Shown piece by piece: positions 3,825-24,200 of a stretch of DNA of 26,922 nt (the stretch's first letter is position 1; every line of letters starts with the position of its first letter). Both the position numbers and the translations under genes were made by a program. The stretch is from positions 1 to 26,922 of IMG/VR virus record IMGVR_UViG_3300035228_001046. One strand, written 5' to 3'. Source of the stretch: a virus. Under the pieces are notes generated by a model. It ran no database searches. It was not told the origin of the DNA and was given only the letters and a program-made list of their open reading frames with translations.

Positions 3825-6800
3825 ATGATCGAGACAAACTCCCCCTTAAGTCCACGGGTAAAGACATATCAGGTTATATCTGAATCTGTACCCGAATTTG
3901 CTGTATCTGAGAACCCCAAGTTTGTTGAGTTCTTAAAACAGTATTATATCTCACAAGATTATCAGGGTGGTCCTTCTGACATCGCTGAAAATATTGATGC
4001 GTACATCAAAATTGATAATTTGACTGTAGATGTCATTAGAGGAGTCACAAATCTGACTTCTGGCATCTCAGCAAGTGATGATACGATCAATGTAACTAAT
4101 ACTGACGGATACCCTAATAACCATGGTCTGATTAAGATCAATAATGAGATTATTACCTATGCAGAAAAAACTCAAACTACTTTTTCTGGATGTACCAGGG
4201 GATTCAGTGGAATCAGCACTTATACCACTCCTAATGATCCTTCCAATCTAGTTTGGGAGCAAACTACTGCTGGAATTCACACTACTGGGGATTCTGTACA
4301 AAATGTTAGTGCTCTTTTTCTGAAAGAGTTCTATAAAAAGTTAAAAACGATGTATACTCCCGGATTAGAGGGAGTAACTTTATCACCACAGTTAGATGTC
4401 AATAATTTCGTCAAAGAAGCAAGAAGTTTATACGAATCGAAGGGAACACAGGATTCTTTCAAAATTCTCTTCAAAGCATTATTTGGTATTGAACCAAAAA
4501 TCAACGATCTTGAGAAATATCTCATTAAACCGTCATTTGCAAATTATGTTCGTAGAAAAACTATTTCCGTAGAATTAATTTCAGGAGATCCTGAAAATCT
4601 TGTCGGAGAAACTCTCTTTCAAGATGATGATCCCAATAATGATAATTTTAGAGCGGCATCTGGTCCTATTTCCGAAGTTTCGCTAATTAGAGACAATTAT
4701 TTTAAACTTTCCCTGTTTACAGGTTTTGATGAGCGATCTCTTACTGATGGAGAATTCAAAGTTCCTGGTAGAACTAGAAATATTGGTTTAGTTGGACTTG
4801 GTGCATCTGTAATCACTGTAGACTCAACTATTGGTTTTTCTAGCACGGGTACTCTGAATATTGGTGATCCTGAAAACGGTTATTCCCAAACCTTAACATA
4901 TTCGACTAAAAGTATTAATCAGTTCTTTGATGTAAATCCATCTATTGCAACTGCTATCCCAAATAACTCAAAAATCTCTTCACCTAACATTGTTTTTGGT
5001 TATGAAGGTGGAGACCTTACTAAAAAGGTTGAAATGAGAGTTACTGGTGTTCTGAACCAGTTTTTAACTAATCAACAACTCCAAAACTTAGATGAAACAT
5101 CATCTATTAAAATTAGAAACTTAGGAAGGTATATTGACGATCCTGAAAATAATAGAAGTTACGAGGAGATCTTTTATAACTCCTGGGTATACAACACTTC
5201 CGCAAGATATTTTATAGATTTATTTTCTGGTTCTAGTTTTGTATTAGTTGGCAATATTAACAAAGCTAGTCTTAGAATTGCTGATGAAATTGAGATTGTC
5301 GGTAGAAATAGTGATTTAGTATATGCAACTGGGTTAACAGTCGCTTCTATCAATACCTCTACTAATACGATCACTATATCGGGTACAATTCCAACTTTAA
5401 ACACATCTCTCAATTACGATATTAGAAGAGTACAGAAAAAAGCAAATTCTTCTATTGTACCAATTAGAGGCGGACAAGATCAACTCTTATCTGACATTAA
5501 TAATACTTATATCGTAACTGAGAACGAATCCGATAGTGGTAAAAGAGAAGCATATGTTGCATCAAGTTCTTTACCAAGTTATCTAATTTCTTCCGACAAA
5601 ATTAGATCTACTTTGGTAGATCCATCTGTCGCTCTTGGCAACTTTGATGGATACAATAGCATAGAAGATGCATATTCTGTAGTTGCATTTACAAATGATG
5701 TTCCATTCAGAACTGGTGATGAAATTACATATGTTCCTAATGGAATTCCTATTGCTGGACTTATCCAAGGAAATTATATTGTAAAAGTTCTCAGTCCCGC
5801 TAACCGCATCGAACTGTATGCATCTAGAGCATTTACTAAAGCAAATCTTCCAGAATACTTCAACCCTCCGACTGGGACTGGTACACATGATTTTATTCTG
5901 AGTTCTCAAGGAACCAGAAGTATTTTCCCATCTAGACCAGTTCGTAGATTTATTCTTGAGCAAGATCTTAAGAGTGGTAAAGAAGCACAGACTACATCGG
6001 AAAGAACTGCCGATGGCAACACTGCCATGCTTACAAATGGTACGGAAGTTCTTAACTACAAAGGTGCTGATTCAGTTTTCTATGGTCCACTGAAAAGAAT
6101 TAACATTCTGAGTGGTGGAGATGGGTATGATGTCATGCATCCACCAAGTATCACTATCGAAGATCCTCTTGTCAGTGCTGCAAATACTGCAGCTGCGCTA
6201 GTTAGTGTTGCTGGAACAATTTCTAATGTTTTTATTGACCCATTTGACTTTGATATTAACAAGATTATCACTGTTGAGATATATGGTGGTAATGGATCTG
6301 GAGCGAGAGGTAGAGCACTAACTGAGGAAAGATACCGTGAGGTCACTTTCAGTGGCATCAGCACTCTCTCAGGTGGCAATGTAGAGGCAGTTAATGATTT
6401 AATCAACTTCAATAAGAGTCACAATATGGTGACTGGTGATAGAATTGTCTATAACAGCAATGGTAATGCAAACTTAGGTATTGCTACAACTGGTTCTTCA
6501 AGTACTGAACTGACCCTCATGAGTGGTCAGGATTACTATGTCAGAGCATTTGATAATGATTCTCTGTATATTCACTACAATAAGAATGATGCTGTAAACG
6601 GTATCAACACAATTACGATTTCTGAGGATGCTGCATCATCAAATAGTGGTGTTCATATCCTTAGGACTTATCAGAAGAAAACGACTATTTCTAGAGTTAA
6701 TGTAGAGGACTCTGGAGAAAATTATAGAAGTAGAACTCTTATTGTAAAACCAGTAGGAATCAACACATTTAAAGATTTTGTAGAATTCAATAATCACGGA

Positions 6801-9800
6801 TTAGTTGACGGTGATGTCCTAAATTACGAATTTGATACAACTACCATCATTGGTCTTAGTTCTACTAAGCAGTATCAAGTAATTAAATTAAACGACAGTC
6901 AGTTCCGTTTGTCTGAGGCAGGTAATAAAGGAGATAAGTCTCCAAATAAAATTAACTTTAACAATAGAGTCTATTCATTTTTAGATTCTCAAGGAAGTGG
7001 ATATCAAAGATTCTCCTTCCCCAAGATTGAGTGTCAAGTCAAGGTTCTTACAGAAGATCAAAAAGAACAAACTCTTACTGCAACTCCTATTGTAAGAGGT
7101 AAAGTAACAGATGCTCTTGTCTATGAGCCAGGTGAAAATTATGGTTCAACAATCATCAATTTTGTAAATGCTCCTACCATTTCTATTCCTAGAGGAACTT
7201 TAGCGCAGATTGGATTAATTATTTCTAATGGTAGAATTATTAGTGCATTTGTTAAAGCATCTGGTTCTAATTACTCTGGTCCTCCAGAAATCAATGTTGG
7301 TAGTGCCAACACCCTAGCGAGTGGCGCTATTCTTAGGGCAGTTGTGGAAGAAGGATCTGTCACTGATGTAAAAGTCATCTCTGGTGGTGTTGGATATGCA
7401 ATCACAAATACAACGATTAATATTCAACCAGTCGGTAATAACTTAAGACTTGAATCTGAACTAAGACCTATTACGGTTAACAAGGCATTTGGTCTTGATG
7501 ATACTGAACTTGACTTCTTGTCTCCCCTCGGTGATGGTCTCGCTGTAAATTATATTGGTTATGGTAACTCTGTTAGAAACTTTTATGGAGATGATGGATC
7601 TAGTCACTCTCCAATTATCGGTTGGGCATATGATGGTAACCCGATTTATGGTCCATTTGGTCTGAAAGATCCTGATAATATTCAGTCGGATGTTCAACTA
7701 CAAACTTCTAGTTACGAAATTTCAGCAACTGGTATTGTTAACAGACCATCAACTGCCGATTTCCCATTCGGATCTTTAGTAGATGATTATGTCTACAGTG
7801 GATCAGGAACTCTTGACGAGCATAATGGTAGATTTACCAAGACTCCAGATTTTCCTCTAGGAGTTTACGCATACTTTGCTACTGTAGATAACCTAAACAA
7901 ACCAGCATTCCCATACTTCATTGGTGATAGTTATAGAAGTTTTGCTATTGTAGAGAACACAGTAAGGGGTTTAGTAATTGATCAAACCAATTTTGACTTT
8001 GAGTCTTCTAAGTTGGTAAGAAATACATTCCCATATAATATGTTTGGTGATGGTCTGGCATATGATTATGTCTTCCAACCATACTTGACAAACAATCAAG
8101 TATCTAGTCCAGATAATCTTGGTATCGGATCCATTACTAGTATCATAGTTACCGAGCGTGGAGAAGGATATAGTGTAAATGATTCTATTGGATTTGATGA
8201 GACTGGATCTAATGGTGGTGGTCTAAGTGCTAATGTACAAAAAGTCTTTGGTAAAGATATTACTAGAGTCACTAGCACTAGTCAAAGTTTCTCAGGTGTT
8301 CCCTTTAAGACTATTCGCGATGGTGTTAAGTTTAGAGTAAATCCTTTCCATGAGTATAAGGAAAATTCATTCGTAAAGATAAGTGGTGTCACCACATTTG
8401 TTCCTCAACTTGAAGGTTTCCATAAGATCTCTCTACCAACATATACAGCTGGTCTTGTAGATAATGGGTACACTGGAATCATCACAGATATCAGAGTGAC
8501 TACAGTTCCTCCTAATGTGTCTGCTGGAGATTCTATTGGTATTGGAACTGAGTCAATGCGTGTTATTAACACATTCCCTCGTGAAAATATCGTAAGAGTT
8601 GAGAGATATGCTGGATTTGCCACTGCATCTGCTGGTGCTGCGGTAACTTATTTCACTAGCGAGTTTACTATTCCTTTACAAGATGTAACTCCTATTGATT
8701 CCAACTTCCAAGACTTGTATTACTTCAACCCTAAAGAAGCGGTTGGTGTAGGCACAACTGTAGGTTTCTCTACATCAGTTAGTGTTTCTCTTAATGGAGT
8801 AACTAAGACACGATCAATTCTCTCTAAATCTATTTTTATTGGTGATCATGATTTTAGAACAAATGATATTGTTACCTTCAACCGTAATGGTAATACGAAT
8901 ATTAATGCTACAAGGTCTGTAGATCCGTATATCGCTCCTAGTGCCCTTCCAAGCAGTCTATATGTTGTTAGGAAGACATCTACCACGATTGGTCTTAAGA
9001 CGACTCCAGACACGGCAGAACTGTTCTTTACGAGCACTGGTGACGACAAGGCAAACTATTACTTTGAATCAAACTACAAACAGGAAAATGCTGACATTGA
9101 GAAAAACGATTTAGAGGTAGTTGCCTCAGAAAATCATAATCTCTCTATTGGTGACAAGTTTACTCTGGTCGTTCAACCTGGACTTACTACGGGTATTGGA
9201 AACTCTACAAATGTAAGAGTTCAAATTCTTGATGGTAATCTAATTGTCAATCCTGTTGAGATTCCTAGGGCGGGCGTTAATACGATAACAGATACATTTA
9301 CAGTACAAAGACACGGTTTTGAGACTGGATACAAAATATTAGCATATGGTAGTCTTGGCACGGCAAGTAGTCTTCCCAGTGGTCTTGAGCAGAAGACTTA
9401 TTTTGTATTGAAAATTGATAGTGACAACTTCCAACTGTCTGATTCCAGAGTTCAACTCTTTAAAGATCCTCCAGAGGTAGTCAGTGTAGCGTCAACGGGT
9501 TTCCCAGGGCAGACCTTCAATCCAATCAATCCACCACTTAAGGTAACTAAAAACAACAATGTTGTTTTCAATCTTAATGATCCATCACTATCTGGGTCTA
9601 AGTTAAAAGTATTCTACGATAACAACTTCTTTAATGAGTTTGTTGGAAGCGGAACTACTGCAAATGTTGAGGTAACTGAGTTTGGTACAGTTGGTATTGG
9701 AACAACCTTAACTTCTGCCACACCCACAAAGACTATCAAATACAACAAGTCATTTAGTGGTGAGTTGTATTATGGTGTTGAGAAGGGTGGATATATGTCC

Positions 9801-12800
9801 ACTTCCGATACAGAGGTAATTGGATACAATAAGATTACATATGAAAATAGTGGATATAATGGAACATATACTGTCGATGGAATTGGGTCCACTACATTTA
9901 GTGCTAATTTAGCATTAGAACCAGAAAAAGCACACTACCTGTCTACTGACTGTGTTGAACTTTCCTATACCACAACTTCTATCGGTGCAACTGGTGGGAT
10001 TGCAAAAGTCCGTCTACTCAACGGTGGATTTGGGTATGAAAAATTTCCTGCAATTACATCCATTGGAAATACTGGAATTAGTGGACAACTTCAGTTAATT
10101 GGCGAAAATATTAACCTTCTGTCTAATCTTTCTGTTCCAACTGATGTATATGGATATCCTTCTGATAATACTCTTAAACCAGACGCTTTCTTACCTAGAG
10201 TTGTAAGAATTAAGAATGCCAACCAAGTAGTTGCAGCTGAAGTTACTTTTGGTGGTAAATCGTATCTGAATGCTCCTTCACTTGCTCTCTTTGATAAAAA
10301 CACTGGAGAAATTATCAATAATGGTCTTATTAAATGTGAACTGAGTGATTCTGCTGTAAACACAGTAGAAGTTTCCGTACAACCAAGAGGATTATCTGGT
10401 GCTGAGTATGGACTTGCTCCTCTCAGAAACAGTAACGGTATTTCTATTATTGAGGCAGAATCTGATGTAGGTTTCCTTACATGTAAGATCACAACTCCGA
10501 TTTTAGGATATGTTAACGAACCATTCTTTGTTGGTGAGTCTGTATTTCTTGAGGGTGTAGAATTTAATAATGATGGCGACGGATTTAACTCTGGTGACTA
10601 TAAGTTCAAAAACTTTACTATTTCTGATTATAACTCCGCAGTAAACCCAAGACAAATAACATTTGCATATTCTTCTCTCTCTGCCAACCCCGGAACTGGT
10701 GCAACAGTTAAACCTGGATTTGGTCAGATCGTTAAGGCAGGAAACCTTGCACAATTTGCGGTAACCAAGGCATTCTCCCCATTTTCTATTAATGAATCCC
10801 TTAGAAGAAATAACGACTTAGAATTAGATCTTATTTTAAGATCTATTGACACTAGCACTGGAGTCATGGTTATTGAGGGATCCAGACCTCTGGAACCCGA
10901 TGATCTGCTTGTAGGTACAAATAGTGGTGACCGTGCAGAAGTTGATAGCATTAGTGAGTTTGATGGATACTTTGATATTGGTTCTACAATCGATACAAAT
11001 GTTGGTTGGTCGGATAACATCGGTTTAGTCGGTGACAATAACCAATTCTTGCCAGATAATGATTATTATCAGAATATGTCATATGCTATTGAAAGTGATA
11101 AGACATATGATGAAATCATTACTCATGTAAATGACATTGTTCACCCTGCAGGGATGAAGAACTTTGCTAATACTCAGATTCTTTCTAGCGGTAATGCTGG
11201 CGAGTCTACGAGACCTGCAGATGATGCCGGTGGATTTGTACTTGATTTTATTAGTGATCCTCTGAGGGTTGATGCAATCTATGGATTTGACCTTGCTAGA
11301 GATGTAAATGCTGCGGACAATGTTTCTAAGTTCGTAGAACTTAAGTCCACAAGACTCTCTGACTTCATCCTGAACAAAACTAACAGAGTTCTTCAGCATG
11401 ACGATATCTCACCTCTCTTCGTAAGTAACGAATCTAATGACCTGAGCGATGATAGAACTATTGCAGCAGCTGTTGCTGGAAGAAACTTCTCAAGATATTT
11501 GATCATCACCAAGCATGATGCTGCGAATCCTCTTCAAAATCAATATCAGTTCAATGAAGTTATTTTAGTAGTACAAGATGGCAATACATATCTTCTACAA
11601 AAAGCACAACTCAACAACACCAACAATGTTGGTTTAGCAACTGGTTATGCAGAGTTCTTCTCTTTCTTCAATTCAAATGACAACCTTACTGAAGTAAGAA
11701 TCAAACCTTACGAGACTTTCGACACTGATTATGATATTAAAGCATTCCAACAAGGATTTGCTTCTGATGTAGGTATCGGTTCCATTAACACTGGTAATGT
11801 AGTTAACTCTTCTGCTAATATTACGGTTTCCGCTGGAACTACAACACAAGTTACTGGTTTCAGCACAACGACATTTGTAGGTGGTATCGGTCACTTTGTT
11901 GTTGTGAACAATGCTGACGGTAAGATTGATTATGTCGAGTTGGCATTGCAGCATGACGGAACAGATACTTATCTGACTGAGTTAGCAACTTTCAACACTA
12001 AGCAAAGTGTCGGTGGTCTGTCTAGTCCCAACTTCATGGGAACATTTACTTCTTCCATTGAAAGTGGTGTTGTTAAGATCAATTATGTCCATAATGAATC
12101 AACTCCGTTATCCATAAGAAGTAAGTTCATATCATTTGAGAATGTTGGTCTCGGAACAACTAGCGTCAGGCATCTCAATCTTGAGTTTACTCCCGAAGGT
12201 ACAGAAAGAACGGCTAGAGTTGTTGTTGGATCATCGGCAACCACAGGTATTTCTACTATTGTAGGAGTCACAACATTCACTGATATTTCATTCAAGACAA
12301 CTGCACATGTAGCGATTGGTGAAACTCAGACATTACATCAAATCTATGTCTTGAGTGATCCAGAAAAACAAGATACATTCATCACACAGCAACCAATTGC
12401 TGCTGTTGGAACTACATCTGGTCTTGGAACATTTGGTGCAGAATACAGAGGAAATCAAATTGTCCTTGAATTCTTCCCTGATGCTGGCGTGTCTGGCATG
12501 GTTAGTATCTTTTCTTACAACGAAGTTCTTTATAAAGACGATGATCCTAACGGTACTCTTGCTGGTATTGGTTCATTTGACTATGGTAAGGTATTTGAGA
12601 ATGTTACATCAAATACCTACCTGGGTATCAACAACAGAAACCTTAGAACTTTCGATCTTAAGTATGAAGGAACTCCGATTTACGAAAGAAATCTTAATCC
12701 TCAAAACCCCAACCAAATTAATTTTGGAAATGGGTTAATAAGTTTCAAGCACTTCTTCTCTAATACTGAGGAAGTTTCTTACAACCCAGGATCAAATATC

Positions 12801-15800
12801 GTTGGTGTTGCTGCTAGTGCATTACAATATGTTACCGGTTATGGTCATACTACTCTGCCAAGCACCGTCTTTATTGTTAAGAGCAATAATAATCAGTTCT
12901 TCATCTCTACTAATATTACCGATGCTAGACAGGGTATTGCCGTAACATTCCAACCGGGAACTGCTGCTGGTAACCAGCATAGGTTCACTATGAATAAGAG
13001 AGATGAAAAATCAATCATCGCTCTCAACGGTATTGTTCAGAAACCAATCTCGTTCACTAAGATCATTTACGATCTTGATGTAGCAGTCAATGGTTTTGTT
13101 ACCGCATTTGCTCTTAGTGGTCTTAGTACAGTTGCCTCAGGTGACTTGTTAAAGATTGATGAGGAATACTCTATTGTACAAACTGTTGGTTTTGCAACTC
13201 AACCAGGTGGTCCTATTACTGGTATTGGCACCTGGAATATTGTTGAGGTAGAAAGGGGTGCTGTTGGATCCATTGCTACAAGTCATTCTGTTGGTGATGT
13301 TGCAAGAATCCATAGAGGTGCTTTCCAGATCCTCAACAGTCAAATTCACTTTACTGAGGCACCTTTAGGTGGTGACCTTGGAATTATCAACCCCGCTAAC
13401 CTTCCTTATCCTAGAGCATCCTTTGGTGGTAGAACTTACCTCAGACAAGATTATAAAACTAACGAATTATTTGATGACTTCTCTGATCAGTTTGATGGTC
13501 TTCAAAATACCTTTGACCTGTCAGCGACTGGTGCTGCTGTAACTGGTATTGGTTCTACTGGTGGTAACGGTGTACTGTTTATTAACGGCATCTTCCAAGC
13601 ACCATTTGGTGAGAACAACGAGGGTGTTTCTAACTTCAAGATTATTGAAGATCCAGTCTCTACTGCTGCTAGTGTTCAGTTCAGTGGTATCACATCAGTT
13701 GGATTTACGGATCTAATTATTGATGAGGATGATATTAACCAAAACCAGTTACCAAGAGGTGGCGTTATTGTCTCTATTGCATCTACTCCTGGTAGAGGAT
13801 ACGCACCGTTCAATGGTTCATCTGTCAAGGTCAATGTAAACACTGCTGGAACAATTACAGAAATTATCGGCGTATCTACTACAGGTGCATTCGTTAACAT
13901 CGAAAATGCTGCTTATGACAATAAGACTGGCATTATGACAGTCTCTACCATTGGCAACCATACTCTTCTTCTTGAAAATTCAGTCAAGTTGGCTGGTCTT
14001 GCGTTTACATGTCCTAAGAATCCTGTTGGAACGCCCAATGGGTTCACTTATGATTCTTCTACAGGTATTTCTACTATCTCGTTTGCAAGTCCTCATGGAC
14101 TAGTAAATGGTGATGCAATCTCTATTGAAGCGAACAGCATTACATTTACATGTACACAGGGTCCTGGTAACCATACATATCCCCGCGTAACTGATCCCGC
14201 ATTTAACCAGTATCTAACTATTTCTGGTGTAACTGCAAATTCATTCAAAGTCGATGTTGGGACTGGTGGTACAGGCACATCTCCACATACATTTATCAGT
14301 GCGGCTACTGATTCTATTAAGACTTTAAATTATCAGGGTATTACTACTAGTATCTTCCCAGATCATAATGATCCTTTCTATGTTGTTGGTATTACATCCG
14401 CAAGAACATTCAAGGTACAAGTTGGTGCATCTACTATTCCCCACACTTATGTAAGTGGTGGTACTGCTGCACCATTCTTCCCATTGACATTTGGTTCTGG
14501 TTACAATACTAATTTTGGAACAATCGGTATTGCTATTACTGATGTTGCGTTTGAGCACAGATTTGCATCTGCTGGCATCAACTCCATCACTGATAACACC
14601 GGAACGAGACATACTGCTACTAATTCTAGTTATACATCACGAACGGGTAAATTGGTTGTCACTGTTCCTGCACATGGTTTGACGACTAGTAATACTGTTG
14701 GTATTGATACAGGATCTCTTGGATTTACTTGCGGTAAGGATAACTTCTTAGGAGTCCATCTTTATCCTAGAGCAACCGATCCTGTTGCTGGCATCTTTAC
14801 TGCAATCACTGCTACAACCGTAAATACTTTTACAGTATTTGTTGGACCTGGCGGTGGTGCTGGTACTGGAGCAGATGTATCTGCTGTAGTTGGTGCTGGT
14901 GGTAGTCTCGTATATACGGTTAACGATGGTGGTGTTGGTTATGTAAATGCACATGCATTGCCACCTGAACCCAATGGTGAAAATCTGCCCGTTGTAGGGG
15001 TATCCAGAATTGGTCTAGGTAATACGACTATAACAGGTGTTGGTTGCTCCGTCACAGTACAAATCACAGGTATCAGCACTGCAACTGGAATTGGATCCAC
15101 TTACTTTGCAGTTACTGAGTTTGAACTCTCTAAGAAGGGTTATGGATTTAAGCGTGGAGACAAGTTTACCGTTACTGGTCTCGCAACAGATCCTCAGGCA
15201 GGAAATAATTTCTCTCCGTTTGAACTTGAGGTTGTCGATGTATTTACCGACCAAGTAGCATCTTGGCAGTTTGGTAATATTGATTATCTTGACAATATTG
15301 CGAGATATCAAAACGGTGATCAGAAGAGATTTATTCTAGAATATCAGAGACAGATTGTCTCCTTTGAGATTGACAGAAATGATCAAGACTCTAAAGAAAT
15401 TGACCTTGCATCTGTTCTTCTAATCTTTATCAATGGTGTTATTCAAGAACCTGGAATTCACTATTCATTCGATGGCGGTTCTGTTATTGAATTTACAACT
15501 GCTCCTACTAAAGAAGATAATGTCGTTATCTTCTTCTACAGAGGATCTATTGGTCAGGATAGTTTCTTATTCGATGTTAACGAAATTGTTAAGGTTGGTG
15601 ACAATCTTAGACTGAGAAAGAGTTCTCAAATTGAACTTAATCAGGTTGCTAAGAGCACTCCTAACTTTGCACAAAGTGCAGAAAGAATCGTTAAGAGGGT
15701 TGATAGTGCCGCCACTGTAGAGACTGCGTTCTATCAGGGTGTAGGTATCAGCAACGATAACTACAAACCGATGGATTGGATCAAGCAGAAGAAGGATATT

Positions 15801-16601
15801 TTGATCGATGGTTCTATTGTATCTAAGGCAAGAGATTCTATTGAGGCACAAATCAATCCAATCGCAAATGTAATTGGTGTCGTTAGCACTACTGATGCTT
15901 TTGTATATGTTGATTCCACAGCATTATTCAAAGACACTGATGGTTTGTTAAACGAGTCATTCTCTCTTGCATATGTTGCAGAGGTTGGATTCGGAACAAC
16001 TGCAGTTTATGGTATTAACTTTGAGAATATGACTAGCATTGAACCTCTTGTGGCTAATATTCAAGGATTCATCGGAGTTGTTACAGGCATCAGCACCTGT
16101 CCTGGAATCGGTACTGATCTAGGCATCAAGATCCAGTTTGATGTCCAGAGTTTTGTAAATGCCGGTAACGATCCTACTGGATTGCAGACGGGTCAACCAT
16201 TCAAACTTTATGGATCTGGTATCAATACTGCAGGTGTTGCAGTAACTAGTATTGACACTCATGACACTGACATTGTTGGAATCAGCACCTTCAATGGTGA
16301 CAACATCTACTACAACCATGCAATTTCGTTTGTACCTGCAACTGGTAGTCGTCTTGGTGTAATGACTGCCAATATTGCTTCTTACACTGATATAAGTGAT
16401 TTTGTAGGTGTTGGTTCTACCGCTGGTCCATACTGTTACTTCACCTGGGGCAAGTTCAACGGAATTACCAGAGATGCTGGTAGTCCTGTTTACGCAAACC
16501 TTAAGGGTATTACTTTTGACCCAGATCTAACTAACTATCCTATTGTACAAAGGCGTGGTTGTGGTTTGAGAGGAACTGGAGGATTGCCGAAGATCTTATA
16601 A
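3825..16601 (+). CDS. gp7: Giant gp7-like baseplate wedge protein, 4258 aa, modular
   Basis: A single uninterrupted frame of 4258 codons starts at ATG 3825, one base after the gp6 stop. It sits between gp6 and gp8, where T4 has gp7 (1032 aa), the wedge initiator that binds gp10 and gp8. From memory of T4 gp7, residues about 18-40 (VPEFAVSENPKFVEFLKQYY), 163-215 (LKEFYKKLKTMY, then LYESKGTQDSFKILFKALFG) and 259-265 (LVGETLF) match its C-terminal third. YYQNMSYAIES (from Y2414) plus VNDIVHPAGMKNFA (HPAG 2440-2443) match a T4 motif that follows soon after. The roughly 2150 residues between are inserted modules: GxGY hairpins, HGxxxGD modules and a YHYH-like domain (1241-1370). The C-terminal half adds INGxxQ modules (N3068, N3254, N3870) and FTC repeats (3394-3636). 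The tail is YPIVQRRGCGLRGTGGLPK. It is beta-rich, without signal peptide or membrane segments. Confidence 0.85.
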   Translation: MIETNSPLSPRVKTYQVISESVPEFAVSENPKFVEFLKQYYISQDYQGGPSDIAENIDAYIKIDNLTVDVIRGVTNLTSGISASDDTINVTNTDGYPNNHGLIKINNEIITYAEKTQTTFSGCTRGFSGISTYTTPNDPSNLVWEQTTAGIHTTGDSVQNVSALFLKEFYKKLKTMYTPGLEGVTLSPQLDVNNFVKEARSLYESKGTQDSFKILFKALFGIEPKINDLEKYLIKPSFANYVRRKTISVELISGDPENLVGETLFQDDDPNNDNFRAASGPISEVSLIRDNYFKLSLFTGFDERSLTDGEFKVPGRTRNIGLVGLGASVITVDSTIGFSSTGTLNIGDPENGYSQTLTYSTKSINQFFDVNPSIATAIPNNSKISSPNIVFGYEGGDLTKKVEMRVTGVLNQFLTNQQLQNLDETSSIKIRNLGRYIDDPENNRSYEEIFYNSWVYNTSARYFIDLFSGSSFVLVGNINKASLRIADEIEIVGRNSDLVYATGLTVASINTSTNTITISGTIPTLNTSLNYDIRRVQKKANSSIVPIRGGQDQLLSDINNTYIVTENESDSGKREAYVASSSLPSYLISSDKIRSTLVDPSVALGNFDGYNSIEDAYSVVAFTNDVPFRTGDEITYVPNGIPIAGLIQGNYIVKVLSPANRIELYASRAFTKANLPEYFNPPTGTGTHDFILSSQGTRSIFPSRPVRRFILEQDLKSGKEAQTTSERTADGNTAMLTNGTEVLNYKGADSVFYGPLKRINILSGGDGYDVMHPPSITIEDPLVSAANTAAALVSVAGTISNVFIDPFDFDINKIITVEIYGGNGSGARGRALTEERYREVTFSGISTLSGGNVEAVNDLINFNKSHNMVTGDRIVYNSNGNANLGIATTGSSSTELTLMSGQDYYVRAFDNDSLYIHYNKNDAVNGINTITISEDAASSNSGVHILRTYQKKTTISRVNVEDSGENYRSRTLIVKPVGINTFKDFVEFNNHGLVDGDVLNYEFDTTTIIGLSSTKQYQVIKLNDSQFRLSEAGNKGDKSPNKINFNNRVYSFLDSQGSGYQRFSFPKIECQVKVLTEDQKEQTLTATPIVRGKVTDALVYEPGENYGSTIINFVNAPTISIPRGTLAQIGLIISNGRIISAFVKASGSNYSGPPEINVGSANTLASGAILRAVVEEGSVTDVKVISGGVGYAITNTTINIQPVGNNLRLESELRPITVNKAFGLDDTELDFLSPLGDGLAVNYIGYGNSVRNFYGDDGSSHSPIIGWAYDGNPIYGPFGLKDPDNIQSDVQLQTSSYEISATGIVNRPSTADFPFGSLVDDYVYSGSGTLDEHNGRFTKTPDFPLGVYAYFATVDNLNKPAFPYFIGDSYRSFAIVENTVRGLVIDQTNFDFESSKLVRNTFPYNMFGDGLAYDYVFQPYLTNNQVSSPDNLGIGSITSIIVTERGEGYSVNDSIGFDETGSNGGGLSANVQKVFGKDITRVTSTSQSFSGVPFKTIRDGVKFRVNPFHEYKENSFVKISGVTTFVPQLEGFHKISLPTYTAGLVDNGYTGIITDIRVTTVPPNVSAGDSIGIGTESMRVINTFPRENIVRVERYAGFATASAGAAVTYFTSEFTIPLQDVTPIDSNFQDLYYFNPKEAVGVGTTVGFSTSVSVSLNGVTKTRSILSKSIFIGDHDFRTNDIVTFNRNGNTNINATRSVDPYIAPSALPSSLYVVRKTSTTIGLKTTPDTAELFFTSTGDDKANYYFESNYKQENADIEKNDLEVVASENHNLSIGDKFTLVVQPGLTTGIGNSTNVRVQILDGNLIVNPVEIPRAGVNTITDTFTVQRHGFETGYKILAYGSLGTASSLPSGLEQKTYFVLKIDSDNFQLSDSRVQLFKDPPEVVSVASTGFPGQTFNPINPPLKVTKNNNVVFNLNDPSLSGSKLKVFYDNNFFNEFVGSGTTANVEVTEFGTVGIGTTLTSATPTKTIKYNKSFSGELYYGVEKGGYMSTSDTEVIGYNKITYENSGYNGTYTVDGIGSTTFSANLALEPEKAHYLSTDCVELSYTTTSIGATGGIAKVRLLNGGFGYEKFPAITSIGNTGISGQLQLIGENINLLSNLSVPTDVYGYPSDNTLKPDAFLPRVVRIKNANQVVAAEVTFGGKSYLNAPSLALFDKNTGEIINNGLIKCELSDSAVNTVEVSVQPRGLSGAEYGLAPLRNSNGISIIEAESDVGFLTCKITTPILGYVNEPFFVGESVFLEGVEFNNDGDGFNSGDYKFKNFTISDYNSAVNPRQITFAYSSLSANPGTGATVKPGFGQIVKAGNLAQFAVTKAFSPFSINESLRRNNDLELDLILRSIDTSTGVMVIEGSRPLEPDDLLVGTNSGDRAEVDSISEFDGYFDIGSTIDTNVGWSDNIGLVGDNNQFLPDNDYYQNMSYAIESDKTYDEIITHVNDIVHPAGMKNFANTQILSSGNAGESTRPADDAGGFVLDFISDPLRVDAIYGFDLARDVNAADNVSKFVELKSTRLSDFILNKTNRVLQHDDISPLFVSNESNDLSDDRTIAAAVAGRNFSRYLIITKHDAANPLQNQYQFNEVILVVQDGNTYLLQKAQLNNTNNVGLATGYAEFFSFFNSNDNLTEVRIKPYETFDTDYDIKAFQQGFASDVGIGSINTGNVVNSSANITVSAGTTTQVTGFSTTTFVGGIGHFVVVNNADGKIDYVELALQHDGTDTYLTELATFNTKQSVGGLSSPNFMGTFTSSIESGVVKINYVHNESTPLSIRSKFISFENVGLGTTSVRHLNLEFTPEGTERTARVVVGSSATTGISTIVGVTTFTDISFKTTAHVAIGETQTLHQIYVLSDPEKQDTFITQQPIAAVGTTSGLGTFGAEYRGNQIVLEFFPDAGVSGMVSIFSYNEVLYKDDDPNGTLAGIGSFDYGKVFENVTSNTYLGINNRNLRTFDLKYEGTPIYERNLNPQNPNQINFGNGLISFKHFFSNTEEVSYNPGSNIVGVAASALQYVTGYGHTTLPSTVFIVKSNNNQFFISTNITDARQGIAVTFQPGTAAGNQHRFTMNKRDEKSIIALNGIVQKPISFTKIIYDLDVAVNGFVTAFALSGLSTVASGDLLKIDEEYSIVQTVGFATQPGGPITGIGTWNIVEVERGAVGSIATSHSVGDVARIHRGAFQILNSQIHFTEAPLGGDLGIINPANLPYPRASFGGRTYLRQDYKTNELFDDFSDQFDGLQNTFDLSATGAAVTGIGSTGGNGVLFINGIFQAPFGENNEGVSNFKIIEDPVSTAASVQFSGITSVGFTDLIIDEDDINQNQLPRGGVIVSIASTPGRGYAPFNGSSVKVNVNTAGTITEIIGVSTTGAFVNIENAAYDNKTGIMTVSTIGNHTLLLENSVKLAGLAFTCPKNPVGTPNGFTYDSSTGISTISFASPHGLVNGDAISIEANSITFTCTQGPGNHTYPRVTDPAFNQYLTISGVTANSFKVDVGTGGTGTSPHTFISAATDSIKTLNYQGITTSIFPDHNDPFYVVGITSARTFKVQVGASTIPHTYVSGGTAAPFFPLTFGSGYNTNFGTIGIAITDVAFEHRFASAGINSITDNTGTRHTATNSSYTSRTGKLVVTVPAHGLTTSNTVGIDTGSLGFTCGKDNFLGVHLYPRATDPVAGIFTAITATTVNTFTVFVGPGGGAGTGADVSAVVGAGGSLVYTVNDGGVGYVNAHALPPEPNGENLPVVGVSRIGLGNTTITGVGCSVTVQITGISTATGIGSTYFAVTEFELSKKGYGFKRGDKFTVTGLATDPQAGNNFSPFELEVVDVFTDQVASWQFGNIDYLDNIARYQNGDQKRFILEYQRQIVSFEIDRNDQDSKEIDLASVLLIFINGVIQEPGIHYSFDGGSVIEFTTAPTKEDNVVIFFYRGSIGQDSFLFDVNEIVKVGDNLRLRKSSQIELNQVAKSTPNFAQSAERIVKRVDSAATVETAFYQGVGISNDNYKPMDWIKQKKDILIDGSIVSKARDSIEAQINPIANVIGVVSTTDAFVYVDSTALFKDTDGLLNESFSLAYVAEVGFGTTAVYGINFENMTSIEPLVANIQGFIGVVTGISTCPGIGTDLGIKIQFDVQSFVNAGNDPTGLQTGQPFKLYGSGINTAGVAVTSIDTHDTDIVGISTFNGDNIYYNHAISFVPATGSRLGVMTANIASYTDISDFVGVGSTAGPYCYFTWGKFNGITRDAGSPVYANLKGITFDPDLTNYPIVQRRGCGLRGTGGLPKIL
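4128..4220 (+). repeat. RG module copy 1 in gp7 (EIITY...GCTRG type)
   Basis: Residues about 102-132 of gp7 read LIKINNEIITYAEKTQ, then FSGCTRGFSGIST. This is the first of four related modules with the pattern I-x-I/D-x-E-x-I-x-Y, a variable loop, then (V)-x-RG. Other copies lie at 8532-8672 and 13146-13332 in gp7 and 24382-24567 in the 2440-aa protein. It interrupts the T4-like N-terminal helical region. Confidence 0.55.
7545..7934 (+). other. YHYH-like domain inside gp7 (residues about 1241-1370)
   Basis: The segment carries HSPIIGWAYDGNPIYGPFG (GWAYDG at 1266-1271, NPIYGP following), then DEHNGRFTKTPDFPLGVYAY (D1331 onward) and a final FPYFIGDSY. The order 'hSPIIGxAxDGxPIYGP', 'DxxNGRFxxTPxFPxGxYAYFAT' and 'PYxIG' is what I associate with the bacterial YHYH domain (Pfam YHYH). 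Its biochemical role is not established. It lies between GxGY repeats, as if inserted in a beta-rich arm. Confidence 0.6.
13911..14046 (+). repeat. FTC module, degenerate copy 1 (gp7)
   Basis: The segment begins AYDNKTGIMTVS, continues NHTLLLENSVKLAGLAFTC (F3394-C3396) and then stops short, lacking the HxYPRxTDP part present in the next copies. It joins directly to copy 2. Confidence 0.55.
14046..14294 (+). repeat. FTC module, full copy 2 (gp7)
   Basis: TYDSSTGISTI, then HGLVNGDAISIE, ITFTC (F3441-C3443), HTYPRVTDP, VTANSFKVDVG and PHTF. The order of sub-motifs matches copy 3 at 14628-14882 closely, so these are diverged duplicates within the protein. Confidence 0.65.
14628..14882 (+). repeat. 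FTC module, full copy 3 (gp7)
   Basis: SYTSRTGKLVV, then HGLTTSNTVGID, LGFTC (F3634-C3636), HLYPRATDP, TTVNTFTVFVG and a Gly-rich end. It aligns unit by unit with copy 2, with the same spacing between HGL, FTC and YPRxTDP. Confidence 0.65.
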
Positions 16602-16637: not shown

Positions 16638-18212
16638 ATGGCAGCCATTATCACCGACCAATTCAGGGTTATTAATGCAAATAATTTTGTAGACTCTGTA
16701 ATTGACGGTACTAATTCCTACTTTACTTTTTTAAGTCTTGCCAACCCGACTATCACGGGTTATGGGAGAACCAGTACCTGGAATAGTACGACGGTTCAAC
16801 CTCCATCTCCGATTGATAATATTACATATATCAATCATGTGTATGATACGATGCTTTTCGGGCGGAAGGTATTGCCTGGTGATGTTAGAAGATTGATTCG
16901 TAAGACTCAGTGGACTAAAGGTACATCATATGATATGTACCGTCATGACTATGATACTAATAACCGATCATTAGTATCAAACTCTAGCAGACTGTATTCA
17001 TCAAACTATTATGTTATTAATAAAGACTTCCGAGTCTATATTTGTATCAATAATGGTTCAGCAGGTATCACATCTTCAGCAAATGCATCACTAGATGAAC
17101 CTACATTTACTGACTTAGAACCTTCCGCTGCAGGAACAAGTGGCGACGGTTATCTGTGGAAATACCTTTTTACTGTCCCTCCTGCTGACATTGTTAAATT
17201 TGACTCAACGGAATATGTAGCGGTTCCTAATGAATGGGCAACTTCCTCCGAGAATGAAGTTAAAGTTATTAGAGATAACGGAGATTCTGCGATAAACAAT
17301 AATCAGATTAAAGTCGTTTCAATTGACGAGCAGGGTGAGGGATATTCCTTCTTGTCAACTCCTATAGAACTTGATATTCTTGGAGATGGAGTTGGAGGTA
17401 AAGTAAGGGTACAAACTAATACAAACGGGCAAATTATTTCTGCAACTGTAACTTCTGGCGGTCAGGGTTACAGTTTTGGTCGAGTTGATCTTTCTTCTAT
17501 CAACTCTTCTGCTACTAAGTTTGCCAAACTGACCCCAATCATTCCTCCATCTAGTGGACATGGTTTTGACTTGTACAAGGAACTAGGAACTGATAAAGTT
17601 CTAATTTATTCTAGATTTGATAGTTCCTCATATGATTTTATTTCAGACACTACATTTGCTCAGATTGGTGTAATCAAAAACCCGATTTCTGCAGGTGCTG
17701 GATCTACTGCTATTCTGAATACTTCAGAATTCTCTGCCTCTAAATCAATTAAATTTACAGGAAACACTAGTCAAGCTCTTGCCATTGGAGGTAAGATTGA
17801 ACAAAATATTACTGGTGTAGGAACAGCAAAGGGATATGTTGCTTCCTACGACATTAGTACACAAGTTGTCAAGTATTTCCAAGATAGAAATCTGTATTTG
17901 AATCCCAATCTTTATGATTCTACAGATAGTATTGGTGTGGGTGGAGATGCCAAAGTTATTGACTTTGACTCTTCTAGCAATGCTATAACTGGTCCTAGTG
18001 GATTCAGTGTTAACATTGACTCATCATTCTCTGGCATCTCAACTACTACACCTGCAGGTAAAGTTGTTGATTTGGGTGTTCAGTTTACAAATGGACTTGC
18101 TGGTGCCGAAATAAATAAAAGGACTGGAGAGATCATATACCTTGATAATAGACCATCTATTACAAGGAATGAGCGTCAAAAAGAAGACATCAAAATCGTT
18201 TTAGAATTCTAA
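16638..18212 (+). CDS. gp8: Baseplate wedge protein gp8, enlarged (524 aa)
   Basis: This is the homologue of T4 gp8 (334 aa), which forms a dimer in the wedge bound to gp7 and gp6. Matching features in order are TDQFRVINANNFVDSV, YFTFLSLANP with GRTSTW, DTMLFGRKVLPGDVRRLIRK, GDGYLWKYLFTVPP, VAVPNEW (P197-W200), FAQIGVIKNP (340-349), and the C-terminus RTGEIIYLDNRPSITRN, then KEDIKIVLEF, which resembles T4 GEMIYMENRPP...INILF. About 190 residues are extra relative to T4. One insertion (about 201-335) holds two GxGY hairpins at 233-236 and 274-278. Another lies between about 350 and 490 and contains a GISTTT element. No Shine-Dalgarno site is visible in the leader. It is followed 4 bases later by the 2440-aa gene. 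Confidence 0.92.
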   Translation: MAAIITDQFRVINANNFVDSVIDGTNSYFTFLSLANPTITGYGRTSTWNSTTVQPPSPIDNITYINHVYDTMLFGRKVLPGDVRRLIRKTQWTKGTSYDMYRHDYDTNNRSLVSNSSRLYSSNYYVINKDFRVYICINNGSAGITSSANASLDEPTFTDLEPSAAGTSGDGYLWKYLFTVPPADIVKFDSTEYVAVPNEWATSSENEVKVIRDNGDSAINNNQIKVVSIDEQGEGYSFLSTPIELDILGDGVGGKVRVQTNTNGQIISATVTSGGQGYSFGRVDLSSINSSATKFAKLTPIIPPSSGHGFDLYKELGTDKVLIYSRFDSSSYDFISDTTFAQIGVIKNPISAGAGSTAILNTSEFSASKSIKFTGNTSQALAIGGKIEQNITGVGTAKGYVASYDISTQVVKYFQDRNLYLNPNLYDSTDSIGVGGDAKVIDFDSSSNAITGPSGFSVNIDSSFSGISTTTPAGKVVDLGVQFTNGLAGAEINKRTGEIIYLDNRPSITRNERQKEDIKIVLEF

Positions 18213-18216
18213 GAAG

Positions 18217-21200
18217 ATGCCACAACAGACTAACCTCAATGTAAGTCCGTATTATGATGATTTTGACCCTAGCAAGGGTTATCATCGTGTCCTGTTTAAA
18301 CCAGGATTCCCTGTACAGGCTAGAGAACTTTCTACTTTACAATCTATTCTGCAAAATCAGGTAGAAACATTTGGTAGTCACATCTTTAAAGAAGGGTCCA
18401 TTGTTATCCCTGGATCCGTCACATTTGATGGGCAGTATTATGCTGTTCAAGTAAATCCAACTCACCTTGGCGTAGATGTTGGAGTATATGCTAATAATGT
18501 TATTGGCAAAAGGATAAAGGGTCAATCCTCTGGAGTGACCGCTAAGGTTATTAACTATATCAGCGCATCTCAATCTGATACTGATTATGATACTTTCTTT
18601 GTAAAATATATTAACTCTGCTACAACTGGCGACTTTAGCTTCTTTGGTGAATCTGAAGTTTTAGTTGCTGAGGAGGCATTTACTTATGGTGGCACAACTA
18701 TCAATGCTGGTGGCACTTTTGCTTCTACTATTGATCTAACTGCTTGCACTATTGGTTCTGCTGCTTCTGTTGATGAGGGTGTATATTTTATTAGGGGTAA
18801 TTTCGTAAGAGTAAAAAAACAAACAATTATTCTCGATCAATATAGTTCGCAACCTTCGTTCAGAGTAGGACTTAGAGTTGTAGAGAGCAATGTATCAGCT
18901 AAATCTGATAATAGTCTCTATGATAATGCAAAAGGTTTTAGTAATTTTGCTGCTCCTGGTGCTGATCGACTTCAGATCAGTCTTATTCTTGATAAGAAAT
19001 CTGTAACTGATTTTGATGACACTGACTTCGTAGAAGTTATGCGTGTCAATAATGGAGATGTTCTTTCTATTAAGAAAGAATCAGAATACTCTAAAATTAG
19101 AGATTATCTTGCTAGAAGAACTTTTGATGAGTCTGGTGACTACACGGTCAATAAGTTTCTACTAAATGTTACCGAATGTCTCAATAATAGACAGGGTAAC
19201 GACGGTGTATATTTCTCTGATCAAACTACATTTGATGGTAATGAACCAAATGAGGATCTTGCTTGCTTAAAAATTAGTGCAGGTAAGGCGTATATTCATG
19301 GTTTTGATGTTTCAACTGATGGTCCTACGACTCTTGATTTCTTCAAACCAAGAGAAACTCAAGAAGTAAAAGATAAAGCGTTCCCATTTGAGATGGGAAA
19401 CAAGTTCATTGTAAACAATGTATCTGGTATTTCCACCTTCACCAACAGAATTAATCTGATGGGTGGACCTAATAGTGGTGGTAGTGCTAATGTAGCAGGC
19501 ACCAGTAGTAAAATTGGTGATGCTAAAGTTTATAACTTTGCAGCAAAAGATAGAGTATATGAAGATGCTTCTACTGAATTTGATCTCTATCTCTATGATA
19601 TTCAGACATATACAACCCTTAAGTTAAATGATAATGTAACTGCTACAGAAATTATTGAATCTGCATATATTGTTGGTGAGGAAAGTGGCGCAAATGCATT
19701 TGCTGTAGCAGCAGGTGCTGGCTCTAGCACTATTCAAGTTACCCAGACATCAGGATCATTCCGTCCGGGAGAAAAACTTCTCATCAATGGGACTGATGAT
19801 CTGTCTAGAACTGTAGAAGAAGTAACATCTTTTGGTGTTAACGATATATTCTCCTTCGCTCAAAGTGGTAACAGTTTTACTGCTAACAAAAAATTAAATG
19901 ATAGGATTCCTCCCAGATTAGGAACTGGCAATGTAAAGATCACAAAGGCTGGTGCAACAGCAACAGTAACTGCACCTAGAATTGATAGTTTTCAAAGATT
20001 CGGTCCTGGTGATGTTATCAGGTTTGTAGAAGGTGGTGATCAATATCAGAATGTTGTATTGACAATTGCTGCTGACCTGCAGTCCATGACTGTTGGTGCA
20101 ATGACAACAGTTGCTAACTTGTTTAAGGGAACTGTTAAGACTTTTGAAGGACCAATTACTATTGGTAATCAAGATACTAGCACTGAGAATGCATCTTTGA
20201 TATCAGTCATTCCTGATCTGAATGTTTCTAATGTTGACTTTACTGGGTCTACCCTCTTACTGTCTGCACAAGTTACTAACGAATCTACAAATTCACTTGG
20301 TCAGTTAGTTGTACCTATTGCATCTGTAAATATTGATGATGCGTCGTTTGCGGCATATGATGAGGAAAGGTATCAAGTTCAATACTCCAATGGGACTATT
20401 GCGGTAGTTGAGGACAACCAAGTAACGGTATCAAGTACTTCTCTTACCATTACAGGTCTTGATGCCTCTCAGACAGGCATGAAAGTCAATGTCACTGTAA
20501 TCAAGGCAAACATCAAGAACAAGGTAAAAGAATTTAAGCGTTGCCAACAAGTCGCTGTTACCAGATCCGCAAATAAATCATCAGGCACTGATCCTGCCAT
20601 TAGTATTGGTGATGGTCTGAATCATAGCGAACTGTATGGTTTGAGAGTTCAGGACAGAGACATTTCACTGAATGTACCTGATGCTACTGATATTGTTGCA
20701 ATCTACGAATCTTTAGATAGCAACGCTCCAATTACGGACAAACTGATTTTCACATCTACTGACGATGTGTTTACTAGTGCTATCATCGGTGAAAATATCT
20801 TCGGATCAACTAGTAAAGGTATTGCTAAGGTTGTTTCTATTGATGCTGGTAACAATACAATTAGCGTGGTATATCTGACCAGCGATAGATTTGCTGTTTT
20901 AGAAGCTCTGACATTTGAAGAGTCAAGCACAACTGCTGTATTGCAAGCAGCAACTCCTGGTAAATATAGAGATGTCACTAGCAGTTATCTACTCGACAAA
21001 GGTCAGAGAGATCAATACTACGATTATTCTAGAATTGTTAGAAATAGAGGAGCATATATTCCCCACAGACAATTGCTGATCGTCTATAACAGATATGACA
21101 TTCCTAGTGGGGACACTGGAGATGTATTCACTGTTAATAGTTACGATGAGGAAAGATATACTAAAGATATTCCTCAGATCGGCCCTAGACGCATTGAAGC

Positions 21201-24200
21201 ACATGATGTATTAGACTTCCGTCCTAGAGTTGCTACATTCAATACTGCATCTGGTACTGTATCACCTTTCTTCTATACGGCAAGAAACTTTGATAATCAA
21301 CCAGATAGAATCCTGACTCCTAATGAGTCAATGGTCTTTGATTATGATTTCTATCTACCCAGAATCGACAAAATAGTTCTTCTTCCTGATGGCAATTTTG
21401 ACCTGTTAAAAGGTAAACCATCCAGACAACCAGTTCCACCTGTTCATCAAGGAATGGGTATGGAGTTGGGAACTATCCTTCTGCCTGCATATCTTAGAGA
21501 TACTGAAGAGGCAAGAGTATATTTGAAGGATAACCGCCGCTACACCATGAGAGATATTGGTGATCTTGCGGATAGAATCGAGAACTTAGAAACCGTTACA
21601 AGTTTGAATCTTCTTGAGAAGAGTGCCGAGAGTCTGCAAATTAGAGATGCACAAGGTCTTAACAGATTTAAGTCTGGTTTCTTCGTAGATAACTTCAAGA
21701 CCTTTGACTTCATGCATCCCAGTTCTCCTTGTGAGATTGATAAGGATCTTGGGGAATTGCGTCCCATGAGAGAATTTGACTCATCTGCTCTGCAAGTTGC
21801 AGCTCAATCAGATCTTCCAGTATCACAGCTTGACTACAGCACTGATTTCCCGCTCTTAGACTTTAACAATACTCAAAAAACTGGTAACCTTCTTTCCTTG
21901 AAGTATGAGGAGGTTGTATACATTCAACAGGAGTTTGCCACAAAGGTAAATAACATCAACCCATTCCATGTTGTTGCATTTACCGGAGAATTAAAACTCA
22001 ACCCTTCTATTGATAATTGGATTAATACTAGAGAAACTCAGAATGTTATCCGTAATACAATTGGTATTACCGTATTCAATAACCAAGTTGCTGCTAACTT
22101 CTCTGTAACTAGAGGGGGATCTCTTGGCGGTTCCGCTACTGTAACAACTAGAGAAACTGGCAGAACTGTACAAAGAGATGACATCAGATCAGAGAACACC
22201 TTCATTGCTGAAGAAACCTTTGATCCATTCTGCCGTTCTAGAAACATTGAATTTAGAGCAGTTGGTGTAAAACCATTCACCAACTTCTTCCCATTCTTTG
22301 ACAATCAAGCAGGTGTAGACATTATTCCTAAACTGCTGGAAGTTACATCAGTAACTGGTTCTTTCCAAGCAGGAGAAACCGTAAGAGGATCTATTGTCAC
22401 TACAGGTGGTGGAACATCATTTGAATTTAGACTCTGCACACCAGACCATAAGGCAGGTCCATTTAACGCACCCACAACAACATATACTGTCAATCCATAC
22501 GATCCAACATCAACTCTTCCCAACGGATATTCTCAGGCATCTACTGTCCTGAATATTGATACAGTTGCTCTTTCTGCTCAGGCACAAGGCGCTTTCTTCG
22601 GATTTGCACCTCCCGGTATGGTGATGAGAGGTCTTACAAGTGGTGCTCAAGCGACTGTATCGGGCGTAAGATTAGTATCTGATGACTTTGGTGATCTTAT
22701 TGGTTCCATCTTCCTCAGAGATCCTAATCAGACTCCTACAGCTCAGGTGAGAGTTAGGTCTGGTAATAGAGACTTTAGACTAACATCTAGCGAGACGAAT
22801 AACAATCCGACGCCCGGAAGTACCTTAATTTCTCATGCTACTGGTAGATACACTGCTACTGGTACTACAAGAGTTGTTCAAACTGATATTAGAATTACAA
22901 CTCTGGAAACTACGACTATTACCAATCTATCAACGATTGATATTAGAGCGACTATTCCGCCCCCACCTCCACCACCACCACCGGTAATCATCAATAATAC
23001 TAGAGTTATTGATAGAACTAGAACGGTCATTAGAAACCGTACTAGAGTTATTAATAGAACTCGTGTTGTTCGTGTAAGAAGAAGAGACCCGCTGGCGCAA
23101 ACGATTGTGACTGGACCAGAAGGAGCTTGGATTACCTCGCTAGATATTTTCTTCTCTGCCAAGAATTCTGGCACTACTCCAATGAGAGTAGAGGTTAGAA
23201 CAGTTGAACTGGGTACTCCGACTCTATTTGTTATTGACAGAGCTGCTCAGGCAACACTTCGTCCTTCAGATATTACAACATCCAACGATGGATCTGTAGC
23301 AACTAATGTCAGATTTGAAACTCCATTCTACCTGGATCCAGATACATCTTATGCAATCATTCTTCTTTCTGATAGTGATGAATATGAGGTATTCTGTGGT
23401 CAGATGGGTCAGAAGGCACTGAATCAGCAAACACTCCCCTCTGCTCAAGGTAAGATTTACTCTCAGCAGTTCGCGATGGGTTCTCTGTTCAAATCACAGA
23501 ACGGTTCAACCTGGACACCTTCACAGTTTGAAGACCTTACATTCAAACTTTATAGGGCAAAGTATACTGCAGATATTGGTCTGCTCACATTCTTCAACCC
23601 TCCAGTCGAACCAAACAATGGAATTCTACCACCTCTTCCATTCGATCCAATTACCTCTATTCCTAAGAAAGCAAAACTTGGTATCGTTACTACTTCAAAC
23701 TCTGGTTTGATTGGTACAGTATTTGTTCCTGGTCGTAAGATTAGTCAAAGCACTGAAACTTATCGCTATGGTTTTGTTGAGTCTAAGGGTGGTCCCGTCC
23801 TTGGTGTTCCTGGTATTGAAACTGGTGGTACTAACTATGGTACTCCTACCAATCCCGTAAGCACTTACAACATTACTGGCGATGGATCTGGGTTAACACT
23901 TACCGCAACAATCGGTGCTGGTATCTCTGCTATTACTGGAGTCTCTATTGCATCTTCTGGAAGAGGATATAAGGTTGGAGATGTTGTTGGCATTCTTACT
24001 GCTGATACCGGTGGATCTGGTTCAGGTGTTCGCATCGGTATCAATTCTCTCGGTGGTATCGACACTCTGTATCTGACTAATGTTCAGGCAGAAGAATTTG
24101 ATACTACAACTGGTACAGATGTAACATATTATCATGGAGCAGGTAGTATAGTTGACACCGGATTAGATGTAACTACATATGACTCTACTGGAAGTATCTA

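Follow-up and report, generated by a model that had tools for sequence, protein, structure and literature searches.

The first of the FTC units in the giant baseplate protein analysed here is not truncated: a second, complete unit is nested within it, in the loop that follows its conserved Cys, and the second half of the first unit lies downstream (14337–14426) because of this nesting. Our reading is that the FTC units are nested, exchangeable small β-barrels carried in loops of a giant gp7-type protein and presumed to bind host glycans; we put the probability of this reading at about 0.7. Natural pairs of viruses differ by one whole predicted module, which makes domain insertion directly testable. 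The self-nesting, together with a near-identical virus that lacks the inner copy, hints at a way in which tail parts could be assembled and exchanged in viruses of this type.

The stretch of DNA that was analysed (the window) is a virus record of 26,922 bases and covers a baseplate region, apparently of a T4-like marine phage. All FTC units lie in one open reading frame of 4258 aa on the + strand (3825–16601), located between a gp6-like gene (1904–3823) and a gp8-like gene (16638–18212), the latter followed by the gene for a DUF4815 protein of 2440 aa (18217–25539). Along almost all of its length, the giant protein matched the phrog_2885 profile, annotated “baseplate wedge subunit” (E 0, best stretch aa 10–4039), and its gene is flanked by the baseplate wedge proteins phrog_219 and phrog_438; the Pfam Baseplate_wedge family reached 21 bits, below its cut-off of 27. 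The name gp7 was taken from the annotation of relatives; T4 gp7 is held to be absent from cyano- and pelagimyophages in the available text of one paper (PMC7029224). The gp7-type protein also contains a YHYH domain (PF14240, E 1.4e-21) at aa 1257–1355, and the DUF4815 protein downstream of gp8 has a proline run followed by two NTRVIDRTR-type stretches 42 nt apart (22982–23068). Cyanophage gp7-type proteins range from ~3,900 to 8,600 residues, and unit insertion may help to explain this size range as well as the diversification of the tail surface.

The units are carried by a β region of the gp7-type protein with approximate bounds 13737–15200, defined by alignment A3 and by alignment with more distant relatives in which this region is free of units (L225, L226, L228, L234, L235 and L240). 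All of its features are on the + strand. The first half of unit 1 (Y...FTC, 13914–14012) matched positions 1–37 of the unit profile with 31.6 bits. It is followed by the nested cassette of 309 nt, or 103 codons (14028–14336), seen as a gap run in the alignment; its exact ends depend on the alignment, and the blastn blocks stop at 14012 and restart at 14341. Within the cassette are the core of unit 2, a full FTC/HTYPRVTDP unit (14049–14261, 77.9 bits), and its HTF strand (14286–14294), the His of which is invariant in alignment A5 (column H134) and which forms strand 134–139 in the model. The second half of unit 1 (GITTSIFPDHNDPF...FKVQVG, 14337–14426) matched profile positions 39–72 with 16.9 bits. 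Further downstream, a second inserted cassette (14550–14861), recognised from a gap run and alignments, contains the core of unit 3, FTC/HLYPRATDP (14631–14846, 84.7 bits). The iterated profile matched along the window at positions 1–37, 1–72, 39–72 and 1–72, giving the order n-n-c-c-n-c, which is that of nesting, not decay.

The original prediction, made from the window alone, had described one degenerate and two full tandem copies. Both full FTC...HxYPRxTDP...VxVG units and the FTC-bearing partial first copy were found, as was the conserved Cys in a Cys-poor protein (12 of 4258 residues are Cys, and three of these belong to FTC). The units do repeat, but calling them tandem is misleading: units 1 and 3 sit in different loops of the host domain and unit 2 in a loop of unit 1. 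The proposed spacing TG-x(14-16)-HGL did not hold, the sequence giving TG-x(8-9)-H, nor is HGL present in every copy, since copy 1 reads HTL. The claim that copy 1 had lost its second half was wrong, because that half is displaced by the nested unit and matched downstream of it. The observation of the units was therefore borne out in part.

A plain tandem array with one decayed copy would account for the HxYPRxTDP block being missing from copy 1 and occurring only twice in the protein, where FTC occurs three times. We consider this very improbable: the “missing” half directly follows unit 2, the two halves are contiguous in five relatives (below), and together the outer halves appear to match one barrel in the predicted model.

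That the repeat is not due to chance follows from the half-unit profiles, which at a threshold of 8 bits or more matched the open reading frames of the collected loci 912 times (N-half) and 729 times (C-half), versus 0 and 1 times for the reversed frames. All 40 units in alignment A1 matched each of phrog_1276, phrog_701, phrog_18802 and phrog_5342 (for phrog_1276, 40/40 with a best value of 2.7e-18); on the gp7-type protein itself, the phrog_1276 profile matched with 1.1e-18 (best stretch aa 3408–3483). Conservation was counted in 421 units outside the DNA pattern by which sequences had been fetched, with 236 matching units set aside; some bias is left, since the units were gathered with motif-built profiles. 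In this set, Cys34 and Pro46 are kept in ~100%, Asp50 in 95%, Arg47 in 94%, Tyr45 in 93% and His15 in 85% of units, and at position 43, 58% have His and 25% Lys. The suggestion that HxYPRxTDP is a binding or folding signature is plausible for this putative element. In the window family, the Cys of the outer unit 1 is retained, but FPDHNDP or a similar stretch is found where other units have YPRxTDP.

Alignment showed that unit 1 is uninterrupted in L006, L007, L017, L018 and L020, with 4–5 residues (e.g., GAAHA), where measured, in place of the 108 in the window. L006 is 99.2% identical to the window by blastn over 710 and 4,070 nt on either side (4,780 nt), but lacks 309 nt (14028–14336) and keeps unit 1 whole. 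L007 is ~96% identical over 10,405 and 7,073 nt, with no gap in either block, and the nested cassette is the sole indel between it and the window across 17.5 kb. No target repeat was seen at the cassette junctions by reading, and 15 nt (GAAHA) of the empty allele replace 324 nt. Unit 3 has an empty site as well, 14550–14861 being missing from L008, L009 and L186.

The window is an IMG/VR virus record that may be a fragment, and chimeric metagenome assembly could in principle produce such a junction. However, the 108-residue loop is present in eleven records, the window included, and the same nesting is found in the P-SSM2 (positions 4065–4242 of the open reading frame) and P-SSM7 genomes (5289–5469 of the stretch examined), again after the Cys, so that we regard this explanation as scarcely credible.

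Relatives range from no unit to eight or more, the post-Cys loop of unit 1 accounting for zero to eight further units among them, and in L016 the units are nested three deep. The distances between fixed anchors on the two sides are quantised at 270–272, 365–375, 459, 477, 686 and 1095–1097 residues in the window and 39 other loci, a count that leaves out loci without both anchors, zero-unit loci among them. The post-Cys loop of unit 1, measured in 46 loops from contigs without deduplication and with a pattern that missed loci such as L017 and L210–L213, has 4–5 residues in 11 cases, 51 in seven, 82 in three, 97 in one, 108 in 11, 322 in 10, 723 in one and 828 in two. The 51-residue loops are nested unit-1-type copies and the 97-residue loop is that of L016; both are under-measured by the pattern, the true content of the former being longer. 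In L221, L222 and L223, the acceptor loop holds ~82 residues of a different, non-FTC sequence, from which it appears that the post-Cys loop may accept other domains too. In L188–L196 and L220, three units lie inside the unit 1 loop (322 residues), and the sequence that precedes the outer second half is similar to the end of the window's cassette. Judging by this similarity, internal deletion in larger cassettes may have given rise to smaller ones.

These long arrays bear on another explanation, in which the nesting is false: an older tandem array would have lost first a C-half and later an N-half by partial deletion, leaving the order n-n-c-c, with the outer halves as remnants and not one domain. 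The loops of 322, 723 and 828 residues in relatives fit such a history, as does the sequence by the outer second half of L188, with its likeness to the window's cassette end. We nevertheless judge it improbable, since in relatives the same two halves form a unit 1 without interruption, the cassette ends fall close to the domain ends, and the break points are complementary.

The complementarity was assessed on 623 full units with distinct context, 194 of which have an N-part upstream and 81 a C-part downstream. Both parts were present for 59 units, compared to 25 expected if the two were independent. The break points of the flanking parts were complementary within 10 positions in 78%, versus 53% when permuted (maximum 74.6% of 2000 permutations), but the 59 split cases are related by descent, with many window-family loci, and the permutation value overstates their independence. 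By loop class, 44 of the 59 agree on both sides (22 post-Cys, 12 post-YPR and 10 at the HGL hairpin, the last with weak upstream matches of 8–13 bits), while 15 are mixed. Several units in L032–L038 and L040 lack the first hairpin and start at an HTFVSA-like strand; in some of these cases, the preceding unit has an orphan hairpin on its upstream side, as nesting at the HGL loop would produce. An excision test, in which the flanks were rejoined and rescored, did not discriminate and carries no weight here: of 692 units removed, 378 were spanned by their joined flanks at 20 bits or more, versus 379 with randomly paired flanks. The control probably fails because the outer parts are interchangeable between loci.

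Comparison of the window with L008 showed 289 of 290 identical positions in 14011–14300, whereas the neighbouring segments were only 78% and 73% identical upstream and 91%, 81% and 67% downstream (blastn). With the nearest parts of unit 1 excluded from the flanks, the tract (314/317) differs from the outer flanks (568/785) with a Fisher p of 4e-32. A near-identical inner unit in diverged surroundings points to recombination, and the inner cassette is probably an allele exchanged by homologous recombination, with the conserved unit 1 halves as the matching sequence. Of the 27 positions in 13608–15200 at which the window and L006 differ, 25 surround the cassette (13993–14444). A tree of the flanks was built for 30 loci with 23 different rows and sites of up to 480 residues; recombination in the flanks could distort it. 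On this tree, the nested state changes at least six times and unit 3 at least three times.

The gain and loss of units that had been proposed is supported, and the original interpretation as a whole in part. The acceptor loop differs in length among relatives (4–5, 108, 322, 723 or 828 residues), the cassette is present in one and absent from the other of two contigs that are 99.2% identical, and the state changes repeatedly on the flank tree; neither the number nor the position of units is constant in all relatives. Copy-number variation is great between species, but was not seen between two isolates of ACG-2014d, Syn7803US5 and Syn7803C72, in both of which the gene is 20,454 nt long, so that there is no unit-sized change between them. 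S-RIM2 phages have one place each among the rows listed for a P-RSM6 unit as query. Unit number within species looks constant in these two cases.

With unit 2 as query, tblastn against 50,697 phage records gave matches in 372, the best of those listed having E 1e-19; all 372 have names that start with Synechococcus, Cyanophage, Prochlorococcus or Marine. The P-RSM6 unit matched 327 records at 908 places, and each of the 60 records listed has between 1 and 17. By the profile used, no unit was present in the gp7-type open reading frame of S-SRM01 (3898 aa) or in that of ACG-2014f (4228 aa). The motif also occurs in 22 genome-contig stretches: 18 titled MAG, three of one Prochlorococcus genome (AG-418-C09) and one of Nonlabens xiamenensis. 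The unit in the last (NZ_RMVE01000006, a 188 kb contig) is almost identical to one of cyanophage P-TIM40, so that for this contig a contaminating phage genome is a likelier explanation than a gene of the bacterium.

The nested segment (13887–14459) was modelled from 110 rows with a mean pLDDT of 83.9 and a pTM of 0.59; by ten-residue block, pLDDT for the inner unit was 74–94. The empty-site rows in alignment A5 are only 33–39% identical to the query; it was probably the inner unit to which they were aligned, so that few rows remain for the outer one. For the outer unit, we used the first model (A4, 531 aa), with a mean pLDDT of 58. VIA-align matched the inner unit (model residues 43–147, nt 14013–14327) to the FCCH barrel of the E1 enzyme UBA6 (Z 8.5, rmsd 2.4, 78 residues) and, with Z 6.2–7.1, to endosialidase barrels; by the aligner's own notes, models that lack a clear match often reach a best Z of 7–8. 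The outer unit appeared to match E1 chains, including the FCCH barrel of Uba1, with Z up to 9.8 and rmsd 2.0–2.2; unrelated rows had Z 6.7 or less. E1 chains fill rows 1–34 of both comparisons, with matches in the segment called FCCH half-domain in 2v31. The outer-unit matches span model residues 89–293 with only 77–83 aligned, and the inner unit occupies ~136–240, which suggests that both outer halves were used and the insert skipped. Inner and outer units are thus both predicted to fold as barrels, and the modelled inner domain agrees with the DNA cassette (14028–14336) to within 15 nt. The predicted fold shared by the units is of the FCCH type; shared fold is not proof of descent.

Foldseek with the nested-segment model gave no PDB match below 0.001 (best 0.014, phi92 endosialidase), but 32 below 0.001 among viral models. 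Seventeen of these are named: 14 are Synechococcus phage proteins, and the 17 include one FCCH-domain protein of an uncultured phage and one endosialidase of S-PRM1. No Pfam family reached its cut-off on the units. E1_FCCH (PF16190, curated cut-off 29.5 bits) reached at best 12.6 bits (E 0.14) in four scanned regions, in the P-SSM2 unit region, and matched 1 of 40 unit members (0.16); End_beta_barrel (PF12195) matched 2 of 40 (best E 0.033). With hhalign, the units matched the K1F barrel over only 23–24 columns (probability 8–13%, P 0.0023–0.0041). Two PDB sequence matches were rejected: FtsZ (4b46, E 0.002) and iota-carbonic anhydrase (7c5x, 5.6e-5), the latter a sum of three stretches of 5.5–9.7 bits, of which the best alone has E 8.7.

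We propose that the FTC units are copies of one small β-barrel domain of about 75–105 residues. Unit 1 would sit in one loop of the host domain and unit 3 in another. Unit 2 would occupy the loop that follows the invariant Cys of unit 1, which would make unit 1 a discontinuous domain wrapped around unit 2; the inner cassette would move by recombination through its conserved flanks. An inserted barrel that enters and leaves through one loop should form a side projection instead of lengthening the chain. The barrels may bind glycans on the host surface, and their insertion and exchange could then alter reach or specificity.

Whether the barrels bind anything is the less certain part of this proposal. 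They could be spacers or decorations without a ligand, in the same architecture, gained and lost nearly neutrally and spread by ordinary recombination; this is the main competing account of function and a serious one, if somewhat short of even odds. The FCCH barrels of E1 enzymes are not known to bind glycans, which would fit a spacer. The conservation of C34, P46, Y45, R47 and D50 in 93–100% of the 421 units is more than a spacer seems to need, and lectin-like LamG domains occur among the units in P-RSM6 and P-SSM7. According to the available text of a preprint (PMC12632334), the β-barrel of the K1F tailspike holds one of three polysialic-acid sites and barrel substitutions such as S460R, S468D and G504V affect host discrimination, but the barrel is largely permissive to mutation, as a spacer would be. 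If the numbering is the same, S460, S468 and G504, which belong to a sialic-acid site, lie within the fold-matched stretch 424–505. By analogy, the K1F sialic-acid site and the LamG domains among the units favour glycan or host-surface binding, to which, taken by itself, we would give close to an even chance. Between FTC units of P-RSM6 (NC_020855), at ~aa 5326–5379 of a protein of 8573 aa, there is also a helical-looking repeated segment that matched the Pfam family Phycobilisome (PF00502) with 27.8–29.5 bits (cut-off 22.2), odd for a tail protein; the match in P-SSM7 is much weaker (E 0.16).

A bolder version, which we consider rather unlikely, is that the unit is a self-recursive domain whose loops accept its own copies, building branched, coral-like barrel stacks on the baseplate one barrel at a time. 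Whole branches would be traded by homologous recombination, acting as a discrete dial for host recognition. What defines the module might be a metal or thiol site made up of the invariant Cys and of conserved residues (His, YPR and Asp).

The closest likeness in predicted fold is the FCCH barrel of E1 ubiquitin-activating enzymes (PF16190; Z 8.5 for the inner and 9.8 for the outer unit), which is itself an insert in E1. The FTC units differ in that they repeat, nest, carry Cys...YPR..D and lack the E1 context, and their sequence score is far below the cut-off. The phage endosialidase β-barrel (PF12195) may be similar in predicted fold as well (Z 7.1 and 8.4 for phi92, 6.2–7.3 for endoNF entries, mostly below the tool's distinctive level). 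The K1F endoNF barrel shares the HGL-x2-GD hairpin with the units, the only part covered by hhalign, and both proteins are phage tail proteins, but in K1F it is one domain of an enzyme, without an array. The four phrogs that match the units (unknown function, virion structural or tail fibre) are whole-protein clusters, labelled without mention of a unit of this kind or of nesting. BACON is a different domain from the FTC unit. In the available text on crAss-like phages (PMC6949934), BACON is likewise a small domain repeated in a phage protein and an evolutionary hotspot, but its repeats are described as tandem, unlike the nested units. No description of FTC units or of domain self-nesting was found in the open-access literature, a scope outside which most subscription papers fall. 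Thus, the fold is known, and self-nesting with gain and loss is new as far as the open-access literature goes: the growth of tandem repeats is familiar, but the insertion of a domain into a loop of another copy of itself, reaching three levels and differing even among near-identical viruses, did not turn up there.
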